The notes below the pieces were generated by a model that was not told the DNA's origin, searched no databases, and saw only the letters and a list, made by a program, of their open reading frames with translations. Of a DNA stretch of 64,000 bases, positions 33,210-38,006 are shown one piece after another. This DNA comes from Chloroflexota bacterium (GTDB lineage: Bacteria; Chloroflexota; Anaerolineae; Anaerolineales; Villigracilaceae). Location of the stretch: the NCBI GenBank assembly GCA_021787595.1, contig JAJYLQ010000006.1, positions 12,408-76,407 on the forward strand, in the 5' to 3' direction. Numbering within the stretch: position 1 is the stretch's first letter; every line of letters begins with the position of its first letter. A program made the position numbers and the translations under genes.

Positions 33210-34028
33210 ATGAATCTACAGGAATTGGAGGCCCGGCTCCAGTCTTTAATCGAAGTCAAGCTGGTTGGCGCGCTGCCGGGACAAAAAGCTGAAAATCTGA
33301 TCGTCCAGGAACTGGTCGAGGCAATGAAATCGAACACAACTGCTGGCGATCAGGAAATGCGGGTTGCGCCAAACGTGTACACGCTTCAAGTAAACAGCGA
33401 GTCGCTCGAGGAATGGAAAAGGTCCCAGCTTCTCGAAACGCTGCTGGATATCCTGAACACCGCGGCCGAAGAGGCGAAACTGAAATTCAGCTCTCCGCCC
33501 ACCATTGCCATAACAGGAGATCCAAATCTGAATGCAGGCGAAATCAAATGGATTGCCTCACAACGAGTAGAAAGCATGGAAGAAACCAAAGACATGAAGC
33601 TTGACAACGAAAACAGTGATGAGGGCGAGTCGCCTCCCGAAAGCGCCTTTTTGATCATCGAAGGCGTAAAGGTGTTTCCGCTCAAGCAGACAGTGGTGAA
33701 TATTGGCCGCCGCCTGGACAACACGCTCGTCATTGACGACCCGCGCGTTTCGCGCAACCACGCGCAGCTGCGCGCCATTAAGGGCCGCTATGTGATCTTC
33801 GATTTGAATTCAACGGGCGGCACATTCGTCAATGGACAACGCACGAGTCAAAGCGTGCTTTATCCCGGCGACGTCATCTCGCTGGCCGGAGTGTCGTTGA
33901 TCTTTGGGCAGGATAATCCACCGCCGCGGCCCGATCTGGCAAGCACCGCGCCGCTGAACGAGGCAGGCGCAAACCGGCCCACGGCAATCATTCAAACCAT
34001 GCCGCCCACAAAGAAAAAGAAGAAATGA
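33210..34028 (+). CDS. FhaA-like FHA-domain protein with DUF3662 N-terminus
   Basis: A 272-residue cytoplasmic protein. Residues 1-125 match the FhaA N-terminal domain (MNLQELEARLQSLIEVKL... pattern ending in ITGDPNLNAGEIKWIAS). A charged linker follows, then an FHA domain at about 160-235 with the phosphothreonine-binding strings NIGRRLDNTLVIDDPRVSRN and STGGTFVNGQ. In actinobacteria FhaA sits with FhaB, RodA, PbpA and kinases and binds phosphorylated cell-wall proteins. Here FhaB follows with a 4-nt overlap and a RodA-PbpA fusion lies 1.6 kb on, so a role in wall synthesis or division is likely. The tail is basic (PPTKKKKK). Confidence 0.88.
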   Translation: MNLQELEARLQSLIEVKLVGALPGQKAENLIVQELVEAMKSNTTAGDQEMRVAPNVYTLQVNSESLEEWKRSQLLETLLDILNTAAEEAKLKFSSPPTIAITGDPNLNAGEIKWIASQRVESMEETKDMKLDNENSDEGESPPESAFLIIEGVKVFPLKQTVVNIGRRLDNTLVIDDPRVSRNHAQLRAIKGRYVIFDLNSTGGTFVNGQRTSQSVLYPGDVISLAGVSLIFGQDNPPPRPDLASTAPLNEAGANRPTAIIQTMPPTKKKKK

Positions 34029-34483
34029 TCGGCGCCCTCGTGCTGGCCCTGCGCATCCTGCTGGTGCTGGCCTTGTACGCATTTCTTGGTTGGGCAATTT
34101 GGACGATTGCGCGGGATTTGAAGAGAGCGGGCTTGCAGGCGAAACCGCGCGATATTCCGGTGATCCGCCTCGAGGTCCGGACCCGGAGCGGGCAGGCGGT
34201 TTCCCGGGCCTTTACCCAGCCCGAAGTCACGTTGGGACGCGATCCAGTCTGCGATATCCTGCTCGATGAAGAAACCGTCTCTGCGCGTCATGCCAAACTT
34301 TCTTATCACCACAATCAATGGTGGCTCGAAGATTTGAGCTCGACCAACGGCACGAATTTGAACGACGCCAGACTCAACACCGCAACGGTACTGACAAGCG
34401 GCGACGAAATCCGGTGCGGCAACACTCATCTGATTGTGAGTCTTGGAAGTGACATCATTGTTCCAATCACGCGCAAATTATGA
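34025..34483 (+). CDS. FhaB-like membrane-anchored FHA-domain protein
   Basis: A 152-residue protein. An N-terminal transmembrane helix (ALVLALRILLVLALYAFLGW, residues 4-23) anchors a cytoplasmic FHA domain at about 70-140 (VTLGRDPVCDILLDEETVSARHAKL-type core with GRD, SARH and STNGTNLN). It overlaps the FhaA-like gene by ATGA, implying translational coupling. Same size and layout as actinobacterial FhaB/FipA, a phosphopeptide-binding regulator of division and peptidoglycan synthesis. The cognate Ser/Thr kinase is not in the window. Confidence 0.88.
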   Translation: MIGALVLALRILLVLALYAFLGWAIWTIARDLKRAGLQAKPRDIPVIRLEVRTRSGQAVSRAFTQPEVTLGRDPVCDILLDEETVSARHAKLSYHHNQWWLEDLSSTNGTNLNDARLNTATVLTSGDEIRCGNTHLIVSLGSDIIVPITRKL

Positions 34484-34492
34484 GGAAGCATC

Positions 34493-35356
34493 ATGACTGA
34501 AACCATCGAACTTGCTGTGGTCGGCGGCTCCGGTTTGTACGATATGAACGGGCTGGAAAGTGTAAGAGAATACTATCTTGAAACGCCATTCGGCAAACCC
34601 AGTTCGCCGATAACCGTTGGCAGCCTCGAGGGCAAACGCGTGGCGTTCCTGGCCCGTCATGGGATCGGCCATCACATTCTTCCAACCGAGGTTCCCTATC
34701 GGGCGAACATCTACGCACTCAAATCCCTCGGCGCGGAGCGGATCATCAGCATCAGCGCCTGCGGCTCCCTGCGCGAAGATTACGCGCCCGGCGACATCGT
34801 CATTCCTGACCAGGTCTACGACAACACAAAAAGCCGCGAACGCACGTTCTTCGGCGAAGGGCTGGTGGCGCACGTCGGCACAGCCGACCCATTCTGCAAA
34901 GACCTGTCGAAACAGCTTGAAGACGCGGTCAAAGCGACCGGTGCGGTTGTCCATAGCGGCGGGACATATATTACAGTCGAAGGCCCGCGTTTCTCGACGA
35001 AGGCCGAATCGCACATTTACCGGTCATGGGGCATGTCGCTGATCGGAATGACAACTGCTCCTGAAGTCTTTCTCGCCCGCGAAGCTGAAATGTGCTACGC
35101 CGTGATGGCACACGTGACAGATTATGATGTATGGCACGTGAGCGAAGCGCCAGTCACCGTTGAAATGGTGGTCCAGGTTCTGAACAAAAACACGCAGACC
35201 GCACAGCAGGCCATCCGGCACCTCGTGCGTGGATTGAATCCAACCCGAAACTGTGATTGCGAAAACGCCCTTGCCAACGCGCTCATCACGCAGCGCAGCG
35301 CCATCCCAAAGACAACAAAGAAAAAGCTCGAGCTGCTCATCAAGAAATACGTTTAG
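34493..35356 (+). CDS. mtnP: S-methyl-5'-thioadenosine phosphorylase
   Basis: A 287-residue trimeric purine phosphorylase family member. GGSGLYDM (residues 10-17) and ARHGIGHHILP (about 54-64) bind phosphate; YITVEGPRFSTKAE and the MTAP-type string GMTTAPEVFLAREAEMCYA lead to VTDYDVW, whose acidic residue pairs with adenine N7 (PNPs have Asn). It cleaves methylthioadenosine to adenine and methylthioribose-1-phosphate in the methionine salvage path. It begins 9 bp after the FhaB-like gene, so it is probably in the same transcript despite an unrelated pathway. The GAGG a few nt before ATG 34493 gives a ribosome site. Confidence 0.93.
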   Translation: MTETIELAVVGGSGLYDMNGLESVREYYLETPFGKPSSPITVGSLEGKRVAFLARHGIGHHILPTEVPYRANIYALKSLGAERIISISACGSLREDYAPGDIVIPDQVYDNTKSRERTFFGEGLVAHVGTADPFCKDLSKQLEDAVKATGAVVHSGGTYITVEGPRFSTKAESHIYRSWGMSLIGMTTAPEVFLAREAEMCYAVMAHVTDYDVWHVSEAPVTVEMVVQVLNKNTQTAQQAIRHLVRGLNPTRNCDCENALANALITQRSAIPKTTKKKLELLIKKYV

Positions 35357-35390
35357 CCCCGAGTTAAAAATCAAAATCATTGTTTCAACT

Positions 35391-35517
35391 TGTCATTCTG
35401 AGTGGCGCCAAGTCGAAGATCCCGCACACGCGGGGCGCCACGAAGAATCTCAAATTTTGATGGAAAACTGGCTTGAAAAGCGAGATTCTTCGCTCCCTCC
35501 GGTCGCTCAGAATGACA
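35391..35517. repeat. Palindromic intergenic repeat
   Basis: Arms TGTCATTCTGAG (35391-35402) and CTCAGAATGACA (35506-35517), with GAAGAATCTC and GAGATTCTTC further inside and a CGCACACGCGGGGCGCC stretch. The TGTCATTCTGAG...CGAAGAATCTC phrase is a widespread dispersed bacterial repeat. Fills most of the 229-bp gap before the SEDS gene. Confidence 0.7.
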
Positions 35518-35585
35518 TGCCTACGTCTATTCATGAATTTCAAAACACTTTCTGAATCGAATCCCGTTGACAGCGTCCATTCATC

Positions 35586-38006
35586 ATGAACGACCAGCGT
35601 GAAAGCCGCCTGATTGCCCTGGCGGCTGTTTTCCTTTTTTTATATTCGGCCATCCTGACCTTGGCGCCCGCCGTCCGCGAGCAAAGCCTGAACGTCGCGT
35701 TCCGCTTATCGCATTGGCTTGGTTTTGCGGCATGGCTGCTGCTGGCGTTTCTTGCGTACCGCGTCACATCGCGCCTTTTGCCCGACCGCGATCCTTACCT
35801 CCTCCCGTCGGCGCTGTTCCTCAGCGGATGGGGAATGCTCACCGTCTGGCGGCTCGACTCCGGCTTTGGCCTGCGCCAGGCATTGTGGCTCGGGGTCAGC
35901 GTTATGGCGTTTGCCTTTATTGCGTTTTTTCTGAATGACCTGAATTTCCTGCGCCGCTATAAATACATCCTTCTAAGCGCCGGTCTCGCGCTCACCACAC
36001 TGACGTTGTTTCTTGGAATCAATCCAGCGGGCGCCGGTCCGCGCCTTTGGCTGGGATGTTGCGGCGTCTATCTTCAGCCGTCCGAGCCGCTGAAATTATT
36101 ATTGGTCGTTTATCTCACGGCCTATCTTGCAGACCGTCTGCCGGCCAGCCCGAACTTTTTCCCGCTTTTGTGGCCGACCATCTTTGCCACCGGCATCGGC
36201 ATTTCATTATTGCTGGTTCAACGCGATCTCGGCACAGCCAGCATCTTCATCATGCTTTACACGGCCATCCTTTATCTTGCGACCGGCAGAGGGCGCGTAT
36301 TGCTGGCGGCCACAATCGGCTTGATCGTCGCGGGATTGACCGGCTATTTCTTCATTGACGTTGTCCGCACGCGGCTGGATGTTTGGATCAATCCATGGAG
36401 CGATCCGGCCGGGCGCGCGTATCAAATCGTCCAATCGTTATTGGCGGTTGCCAACGGCGGGACGATCGGGCGCGGTCCGGGATTGGGAAGTCCGAGCCTG
36501 GTACCGGTGGCCCATTCCGATTTTATCTTTTCCGCAATGGCGGAAGAAACGGGCCTGGCTGGGACGTTCGGCCTGTTCGCCATCTTTGGCTTGATCTTCG
36601 CCCGCGGCTTGATCGCATCCCTGCGCGCAAAAGATAGATTCCGCCGCCTGCTTGCCGCGGGACTGACTGCCTATCTCGGTCTCCAGGCCCTTCTTATCAT
36701 TGGCGGCAATCTGCGATTGTTTCCCCTAACGGGCGAGACATTGCCATTCGTTGCTTACGGCGGCTCATCACTGCTGACGGCCTTTGTCGCGCTGACACTG
36801 CTGCTTATCATCAGCAATCAAACCGACGTCGAGCCGGTTCCATTGCCATCGCCCCGACCTTATTTTTTTCTTGCCGCCGCGCTCGGGCTCGGTTTGGTGG
36901 CCGCGTCGCTGACCAATACGTGGTGGTCGGTAATACGCTCCTCCGATCTTCTTGCGCGTACCGATAACGCGCGCCGCTCCATCGCGGATCGCTATGTGAA
37001 ACGCGGAAGCCTGCTGGATCGAAATAACCAGCCCATTGATGCAACCGAAGGCTCGAGTGGTTCTTATAAACGGGTTTATTTTTATCCTGAACTCGCGTCC
37101 GTTATTGGATACACGCACCCCATCTTTGGTCAGGCAGGACTCGAAGCTTCGCTGGATGATTATCTGCGCGGCCTGCAAGGGAATCCAAGCAGCCTCATCT
37201 GGTGGGATCACTTACTTTACGGCACGCCGCCTCCCGGTCTGGATGTGAGGCTGAGTCTCGACCTCGAGCTTCAGCGACGCGCCGATCAACTGCTTGGAGA
37301 TTCCACGGGCGCCATCGTTTTGCTCAACGCGCACACCGGCGAAATCCTTGTGATGGCCTCTCATCCAAATTACGATCCCAATAAACTGGATAAGATCGGC
37401 GCGTCGCTTGCAAAAGATTCGACGGCGCCGTTGGTCAATCGCGCCGCGCAAGGCACGTACCCCGTTGGGACAGCGGCAGTTCCCTTTTACAGCACGCTGG
37501 GAGAAGTCAACGCGCCGCCCGCGCAGCAATTGCAGACTTTATTCGAGAAGCTTGGATTCTATACTACGCCGCAACTAAGCCTGCCGGTCGCGGGTGCCGC
37601 GCCCAAAAACGAGACCGCCAATCTTCAAGTGAGTCCCCTGCAAATGGCATTGGCCGCGGCTTCCCTGAGCAATTCGGGAGTGCGCCCCGCTCCGCGCATT
37701 GCGCTTGCCGTGGATACACCCCAGCAAGGTTGGGTCATTCTGCCGGCGCAAACGCCGCCCGTTCAAATTTTCCCCGCAGATGCCGCCGCAAAGGCCGCGC
37801 TTCAAAATACTCTTCAAAATAAAATCTATTGGGAGTGGACCGGGTCAGCGAATTCGCCGAAGATGCCCGTGACCTGGTATCTGGCCGGGACCTTGCCAAA
37901 CTGGCAGGGCACGCCGCTGGCAGTCGTGGTGCTGATCGAAGGCAACTATCCATCTATTGCGCAATATGCCGGCCAGGAGTTGATCCAAGCCGCAACAAAG
38001 CCGTAA
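35586..38006 (+). CDS. SEDS (RodA/FtsW) glycosyltransferase fused to a transpeptidase-like domain lacking catalytic residues
   Basis: An 806-residue fusion. Residues about 1-430 are a SEDS peptidoglycan polymerase: GAGPRLWLGCCGVYLQPSEP (about 150-170) and HSDFIFSAMAEETG (about 309) with the catalytic-loop aspartate, and about ten helices. After a linker helix, residues about 460-806 match a class B penicillin-binding protein: RGSLLDRNNQPID (about 470), an outer-domain part and VSPLQMALAAASLSNSG (about 680). But the active-site SxxK reads GTAAV (about 625) and KTG reads WTG (about 750), so acylation of a donor peptide is not expected. It may act as a built-in activator of the polymerase. It lies downstream of FhaA/FhaB genes, as rodA-pbpA does in actinobacteria. 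Confidence 0.88.
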   Translation: MNDQRESRLIALAAVFLFLYSAILTLAPAVREQSLNVAFRLSHWLGFAAWLLLAFLAYRVTSRLLPDRDPYLLPSALFLSGWGMLTVWRLDSGFGLRQALWLGVSVMAFAFIAFFLNDLNFLRRYKYILLSAGLALTTLTLFLGINPAGAGPRLWLGCCGVYLQPSEPLKLLLVVYLTAYLADRLPASPNFFPLLWPTIFATGIGISLLLVQRDLGTASIFIMLYTAILYLATGRGRVLLAATIGLIVAGLTGYFFIDVVRTRLDVWINPWSDPAGRAYQIVQSLLAVANGGTIGRGPGLGSPSLVPVAHSDFIFSAMAEETGLAGTFGLFAIFGLIFARGLIASLRAKDRFRRLLAAGLTAYLGLQALLIIGGNLRLFPLTGETLPFVAYGGSSLLTAFVALTLLLIISNQTDVEPVPLPSPRPYFFLAAALGLGLVAASLTNTWWSVIRSSDLLARTDNARRSIADRYVKRGSLLDRNNQPIDATEGSSGSYKRVYFYPELASVIGYTHPIFGQAGLEASLDDYLRGLQGNPSSLIWWDHLLYGTPPPGLDVRLSLDLELQRRADQLLGDSTGAIVLLNAHTGEILVMASHPNYDPNKLDKIGASLAKDSTAPLVNRAAQGTYPVGTAAVPFYSTLGEVNAPPAQQLQTLFEKLGFYTTPQLSLPVAGAAPKNETANLQVSPLQMALAAASLSNSGVRPAPRIALAVDTPQQGWVILPAQTPPVQIFPADAAAKAALQNTLQNKIYWEWTGSANSPKMPVTWYLAGTLPNWQGTPLAVVVLIEGNYPSIAQYAGQELIQAATKP

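Follow-up and report, generated by a model that had tools for sequence, protein, structure and literature searches.

A RodA-type SEDS polymerase naturally fused to a class B penicillin-binding protein without its transpeptidase motifs in the Anaerolineae

The window analysed here is a stretch of 64,000 nucleotides from a Chloroflexota bacterium of the Anaerolineales (GenBank assembly GCA_021787595.1, contig JAJYLQ010000006.1, positions 12,408 to 76,407 of the forward strand). One of its open reading frames (ORFs) encodes a protein of 806 residues in which a polymerase of the RodA/FtsW (SEDS) family is followed, in the same chain, by a class B penicillin-binding protein (PBP) whose transpeptidase site has lost its catalytic residues (Table 1). 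The original prediction, made from the sequence alone, had described such a single chain; the ORF is exactly as claimed, and both halves are matched by Pfam and by fold. The Transpeptidase match in the Pfam scan (46.6 bits) falls into two pieces, the best of which covers positions 1–43 of the 299 in the profile.

The closest relatives used throughout are the named loci, the 80 of 582 most similar to the window's family, a set that leans towards fused dead forms. One of them (L238) has no readable motif, and 77 rows, the window protein included, entered the alignment (A2) to which all counts out of 77 refer. An AlphaFold2 model of the fusion built on this alignment has a predicted local distance difference test score (pLDDT) of 89.5 and a predicted template modelling score (pTM) of 0.84. 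According to VIA-align, the SEDS part (residues 68–416) fits FtsW 8bh1_A with an aligned length of 327 residues at 2.1 Å. The original prediction had suggested comparing the PBP part with known class B PBPs; residues 465–805 find their best fit in Mycobacterium tuberculosis PbpA 3upp_A (Z 38.7, 2.9 Å, 336 residues aligned), the two entries 3upp and 3un7 spanning 331–336 aligned residues and 2.8–2.9 Å, and the best 50 rows of a Foldseek search with the model are all PBP chains. A relative from Levilinea with 857 residues keeps a segment that is missing from the 806-residue protein, and in its model (pLDDT 87.8, pTM 0.80) PbpA is again the best fit (3lo7_A, Z 39.5, tied with several others). The PBP half is modelled with high confidence as a PbpA-like class B fold. 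SEDS proteins usually have 10 membrane helices; because the model places two additional N-terminal helices ahead of the part that aligns with Thermus RodA, the SEDS half of the fusion seems to have about 12.

Table 1. Features of the fused gene and of the genes upstream of it (positions of the window)
Feature	Coordinates	Strand	Evidence
FhaA-like gene (FhaA_N + FHA)	33210..34028	+	PF12401 45.4 bits, PF00498 68 bits
FhaB-like gene (FHA)	34025..34483	+	PF00498 70.8 bits; best NCBIfam FhaB_Rv0019c 83.1 bits, below cut-off 125
Gene between FhaB-like gene and fusion	34493..35356	+	ORF; homologue upstream in 67/73 named loci
Single ORF, 806 aa, ATG start: SEDS polymerase fused to pseudo class B PBP	35586..38006	+	ORF list, Pfam, model
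N-terminal helices, residues 1–93; two precede the part aligning with Thermus RodA	35586..35864	+	helices in model; Pfam match from residue 94
SEDS core FTSW_RODA_SPOVE (PF01098), residues 94–413	35865..36824	+	Pfam 218 bits, curated cut-off 26.4; Z 37.8 to FtsW 8bh1_A
Codon of the catalytic SEDS aspartate D312 (in alignment with D255 of Thermus RodA)	36519..36521	+	alignment; Asp in 77/77 rows
Linker, about residues 411–423, from last SEDS helix to PBP helix; probably cytosolic from the deduced topology	36816..36854	+	secondary structure of model
PBP transmembrane helix, residues 424–450	36855..36935	+	helix in model; membrane role presumed from family
Pedestal / PBP dimerisation region, residues 453–560	36942..37265	+	PBP_dimer_2 (PF21922) on residues 473–551, 26.3 bits against cut-off 27; conservation like SEDS core
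Pseudo-transpeptidase lobe, residues 561–806	37266..38003	+	PbpA fold match; no Lys column in >=30% of 77 rows
SxxK site, reads TAAV, residues 629–632	37470..37481	+	alignment
KTG site, reads WTG, residues 751–753	37836..37844	+	alignment

The state of the transpeptidase site was judged against 19 active relatives, which were chosen for an SxxK motif and all of which also have SxN and K(T/S)G. Against this set, the SxxK block of the 806-residue protein reads YPVG-TAAV and the KTG block WEWTGSAN, with W751 at the position of the lysine, in agreement with what had been read from the sequence alone. The alignment further revealed that the SxN segment is deleted, a point on which the original prediction was silent; in all, the 806-residue form lacks about 50–60 residues that longer forms keep. 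Where fused pseudo rows have the segment, the SxN asparagine position is a proline in 12 of 14. The first SxxK position is serine in 14 of the 77 rows and the fourth lysine in two, both together occurring in a single row (L189, SALK), and the KTG lysine is found in none of the 77. A substitute Ser/Lys pair, sought as conserved columns in the lobe, was not found either: no column has lysine in at least 30% of the 77 rows, so that no conserved substitute lysine appears to exist, and only Ser592, Ser683 and Ser695 reach 60% for serine. The site is almost certainly unable to act as a serine DD-transpeptidase.

Two further observations concern this lobe. W749 (37830–37832), which immediately precedes the former KTG strand, does not vary among the 77 rows; at the aligned position the active relatives have glycine or alanine in 19 of 19 cases. 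Cys662 and Cys680 of the Levilinea relative co-occur in 37 of 41 rows, the other four (the window protein, L164, L168 and L185) being gapped there. We had considered a new disulfide as a derived trait of the long forms and rejected it: a cysteine at the SCN position is also present in 8 of the 19 active relatives, and the pair therefore looks inherited.

The loss of the motifs is not confined to the window. A first search gave a match in all 61 genomes, and within the taxonomic family of the window 37 of 37 genomes (its own included) match with E < 1e-215, although some copies are cut by contig ends. The named relatives, mostly titled Anaerolineae, Anaerolineales or Chloroflexi, include Levilinea saccharolytica KIBI-1 and Leptolinea sp. 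HRD-7. An SxxK pair is missing in 78 of the 79 named loci with a readable motif, and there is no internal stop in any of the 80 matches. For further members, 101 genomes of the class and 81 of the phylum were searched and the closest SEDS matches taken. In the class, 32 of the 33 genomes outside the window's family with a best match of about 180 bits or more were fetched with long flanks (G134 was left out), the rest of the 101 having weaker, uncounted SEDS matches only; the phylum search led to 20 fetched genomes. A SEDS tree of 114 rows thus contained 63 fused proteins, 31 separate ones with a readable PBP and 20 without a readable PBP state. When tested for SxxK plus KTG, all 63 fused rows failed, and so did 14 of the 31 separate PBPs. 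Since separate PBPs fail as well, losing the catalytic motifs does not depend on being fused. The 17 PBPs that passed belong to other classes of the phylum in 13 cases and to three families of the class (f44, f48 and f54) in four.

Close homologues with intact SxxK and KTG, which in the original prediction would have pointed to local decay, were looked for without success; the intact homologues are all more distant and encoded by genes of their own. Many families of the class share the loss, which is old and conserved among the relatives; chance and local decay do not explain it. The tree requires at least two changes of activity and at least six of fusion; it is a quick tree, with SH-aLRT (Shimodaira–Hasegawa-like approximate likelihood ratio test) support only, 38 of 111 inner branches open and a midpoint root for drawing. 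The loss would have come before or with the first fusion, an order that stays conditional because the root is not fixed. Left out of the tree were L076–L101 and L143 (refetched with longer flanks, except L095 of G134), L073–L075 (repeats), L142 (a fused relative, G213) and the other SEDS genes of the study genome. Some assignments carry limits of their own: L070, L071, L128 and L131 have PBPs that lie on other contigs than the SEDS gene or at a distance from it; G030 (L065, cut before KTG) is a fusion cut by a contig end and G040 is probably another; and the site call of L104 and L105 is one residue out of register, both failing either way. We consider it about an even bet that these data reflect a natural separation of function, in which the RodA-associated class B PBP of a large part of the Anaerolineae gave up catalysis for a dedicated role in the allosteric activation of its SEDS polymerase; the loss would have come first and enabled a fusion that arose, or was undone, more than once.

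Two proteins stand apart in this comparison. A fused dead protein from another class of the phylum (L144:3470-6130, f65) groups in the tree with separate, mostly active proteins and needs a loss of its own or a transfer. L121:2628-3767 encodes a separate PBP with a low-complexity Glu-rich stretch that keeps GKTGTA and has lost SxxK and the middle segment; it is a possible intermediate.

The catalytic residues of the SEDS half have been retained, as the original prediction had noted for the aspartate of the HSDFIF loop. D312, in this loop, aligns with D255 of Thermus RodA, a position that reads alanine in entries 6bas and 6pl6 and that we take to be equivalent to D262 of Escherichia coli RodA. 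D312, E167, K170, Q212, D214, E320 and E321 are each kept in 77 of 77 rows. Conservation along the chain, expressed as the mean majority over the 77 rows, is 0.70 in the SEDS core and 0.69 in the pedestal, 0.50 in the PBP helix (residues 424–452) and 0.48 in residues 705–806. The expected pocket region, residues 625–680, is the least conserved of the stretches tabulated (0.39). A common alignment of 19 active PBPs (with SxxK high by choice), 15 separate pseudo PBPs (among them L071 of G040, probably a cut fusion) and 22 fused pseudo PBPs serves as a control: the SxxK, SxN and KTG blocks have a mean majority of 0.80, 0.66 and 0.77 in the active, 0.49, 0.41 and 0.43 in the separate pseudo and 0.51, 0.34 and 0.33 in the fused pseudo group, while the region before transpeptidase strand 1, the pedestal, stays at 0.53, 0.53 and 0.57. 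The pedestal is conserved like the SEDS core; the motif blocks are not.

The lobe has nevertheless been maintained. Its ratio of nonsynonymous to synonymous substitution rates (dN/dS) is 0.106–0.244 (computable for 9 of 11 close pairs), compared to 0.040–0.123 for the SEDS part (10 pairs) and 0.027–0.202 for the pedestal (9 pairs), all of them rough values with many dS above 1. These ratios are low but above those of the SEDS part, and the lobe is thus kept under purifying selection, if more loosely than the rest. Four of its residues (R619, P684, G698 and W749) are invariant in the 77 rows, and pLDDT exceeds 85 in most of its ten-residue blocks.

The genome contains three SEDS genes, the fusion included. 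The original prediction had proposed a search for a separate active PBP2; motif-intact class B PBPs are present in the loci of both other SEDS genes. The second SEDS locus contains an FtsI-type PBP of 596 residues (EPGSVIK, KTGT), amid genes that are presumably mur genes, and the third has MreB, MreC and a PBP of 870 residues (PPGSTFK, KTGT). There are also a MecA_N-type PBP of 757 residues (YPLGSVFK, KTGT), class A PBPs of 1017 residues (QPGSSIK, KTGT) and 839 residues (KTGT, with an SxxK outside the pattern used), and five YkuD proteins. The separate motif-intact PBPs and the YkuD proteins thus provide the cell with other candidates for cross-linking. A third class A PBP of 841 residues (L008:448-2970, on contig C41 of about 260 kb) has a transglycosylase match of 86.6 bits; it reads PGSLMT at SxxK and KIG for KTG, and its transpeptidase part looks degenerate.

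Sequence and model establish the fusion, the lost catalytic residues and the breadth of their loss, the retained pedestal and SEDS residues and the other PBPs of the cell. We propose, with a probability of roughly 0.6 for the mechanism as a whole, that the fusion is a lipid II glycan polymerase that carries its activator in the same chain, namely a relative of PbpA with a dead transpeptidase site. The PBP helix and pedestal would be retained because they bring the SEDS half into its active state or keep it there, and the transpeptidase lobe would persist as a fold and not as an enzyme; the strands would be cross-linked by other enzymes of the cell. A conserved pedestal and a conserved SEDS site next to a dead lobe are compatible with such a tethered activator or switch; the lobe itself may serve as a brace for the pedestal or as a binding surface. 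Of the two readings offered originally, a self-activating polymerase whose strands are cross-linked by other enzymes is the better supported because the SEDS half and pedestal are conserved, the transpeptidase site is widely lost and separate motif-intact PBPs exist. Published work bears on several steps. FtsW and RodA require a class B PBP to polymerise in vitro (PMC10257715). RodA alone has a residual activity, which the PBP2 helix raises in fusions whether or not the remainder of PBP2 is attached, and the D262A substitution abolishes the activity of E. coli RodA-PBP2 (PMC10449877). A change in the PBP2 pedestal stimulates RodA in a RodA-PBP2 fusion (PMC6207328), and the residues that mediate FtsW activation are mostly located between the large loop of FtsW and the pedestal of FtsI (PMC8765783).

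Several points weigh against this proposal. The E. coli PBP2 helix stimulated RodA by itself (PMC10449877), while the PBP helix of the fusion family is only moderately conserved. Interface II of RodA-PBP2 represses polymerisation until PBP2 opens (PMC10257715), and because of this contact a conserved pedestal could mean inhibition as well. The transpeptidase activity of PBP1 is essential in Staphylococcus aureus (PMC9426605). Moreover, the lobe might have disappeared if only activation mattered, and its low dN/dS therefore points to some further, unexplained role. We know of no biochemistry for any member of the fused family.

A possible, though clearly less probable, explanation takes up this last role and holds that activation is only part of the function: the dead lobe would have gained a binding job, with a partner protein, a stem peptide or the nascent wall as its ligand, and would couple the state of the wall to the SEDS half as a sensor or scaffold. 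Its purifying selection, its four invariant residues and its well-modelled fold speak for this reading. However, the old pocket is where conservation is lowest, which makes a ligand in that place unlikely, and the Pfam scan shows no added domain.

It is unlikely that the fusion has turned into a regulator or a transport-like membrane protein which titrates or positions the other two SEDS-PBP pairs and is steered by the FHA proteins, even though both of these pairs have motif-intact PBPs and FHA genes are frequent companions of the locus. Enough upstream sequence (2.8 kb) for a count was available for 73 of the 80 named loci, 11 of the 63 fused ones, 9 of the 14 separate pseudo ones and 12 of the 17 separate active ones. 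Of the 73 named fused loci, 68 have FhaA- and FhaB-like genes upstream, as do 4 of the 9 separate pseudo loci and 11 of the 12 separate active loci; such genes are present in one of the 11 fused loci with long flanks, the only one of these from the window's family, and tblastn with the FHA proteins of the window detected none in the 10 fused loci outside its order, where diverged FHA genes could escape. The linkage is as common beside separate active pairs as beside the fusion, and we rejected it as a specific mark of special regulation. The invariance of the SEDS catalytic residues would also be needless for a regulator. The suggestion in the original prediction that the protein reads FHA or phospho signals from neighbouring genes has thus found no direct support: the Pfam scan detected no phospho-binding domain in the fusion, and none of the 15 Ser/Thr kinase matches in the genome is on its contig (C1).

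It is very improbable that the lobe retains hydrolase or transpeptidase activity by means of another active site. The fold is kept and SALK occurs at the SxxK position of L029 and of the named locus L189, but L029 has no KTG by the pattern used, L189 reads HTG, and the conserved columns described above offer three serines and no lysine. Least probable of all is a gene in decay through local loss or a bad assembly: motif blocks that vary freely, the 50–60 lost residues and the KTG kept without SxxK in L121 might suggest it, yet stop-free matches, dN/dS far below 1, a loss common to many families of the class and the presence of the gene in all 37 genomes of the window's family led us to reject decay or a frame error.

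The RodA-PbpA pair of the Actinobacteria, encoded in the gene order fha-rodA-pbpA, resembles the fusion in that FhaA- and FhaB-like genes precede the SEDS gene and that the PBP half is closest in fold to M. tuberculosis PbpA. It differs in consisting of two chains and in retaining the SxxK, SxN and KTG motifs lost here. In addition, the fusion has no kinase match on its contig and a gene between FhaB and the SEDS gene, which we take to be MTAP/purine-phosphorylase-like, whereas the actinobacterial locus comprises fhaA, fhaB, pstP, pknA and pknB (PMC6554272). With RodA-PBP2 of E. coli and Thermus the fusion shares a SEDS core with its catalytic aspartate and a PBP with one helix, a pedestal and a transpeptidase fold; there, however, the PBP is live and encoded by a separate gene, while here it is dead and naturally fused. 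E. coli RodA and PBP2 are active when joined in engineered fusions (PMC10449877, PMC6207328). Natural SEDS-PBP fusions with both halves in a single ORF also exist, the genome of Rhodococcus sp. RHA1 being cited as a reference, but the passage that cites it does not mention a dead PBP (PMC10449877). The S314A mutant of S. aureus PBP1, like the fusion a class B PBP without its catalytic serine, is transpeptidase inactive and septum progression continued in it at a reduced level (PMC9426605); this is a laboratory mutant, unlike the natural and widespread loss of all three motifs described here. In mainly open-access literature, covered by titles and the beginnings of abstracts, neither a naturally dead class B PBP in fusion with SEDS nor a widespread dead partner was seen to be reported, and the terms fusion, fused, natural, single ORF and Chloroflexi are absent from PMC5324115. 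SEDS-PBP pairs, natural fusions and transpeptidase-dead laboratory mutants are therefore known, and the natural, widespread dead class B PBP partner is apparently new.

If the separation of function considered above did take place, the cell has a glycan polymerase that is beyond the reach of beta-lactams via its own partner, and this partner never cross-links the strands made. Whether a class B PBP serves its SEDS protein as enzyme, activator or both has been studied with point mutants and engineered fusions; evolution appears to have run that experiment, keeping the pedestal and SEDS residues and losing the catalytic motifs. The family, with members in the two named Levilinea and Leptolinea strains, offers single-chain proteins for SEDS biochemistry and structure. 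For annotation, a Transpeptidase Pfam match in this family does not imply a penicillin target.

Directly upstream of the fusion, a repeat some 190 bases long that has inverted arms (35364–35553) ends 32 bases before the start codon. A 229-base interval around it has at least 47 matches in the genome, itself included (40 of 104 candidates were scored), and the element looks like a small non-coding mobile repeat.

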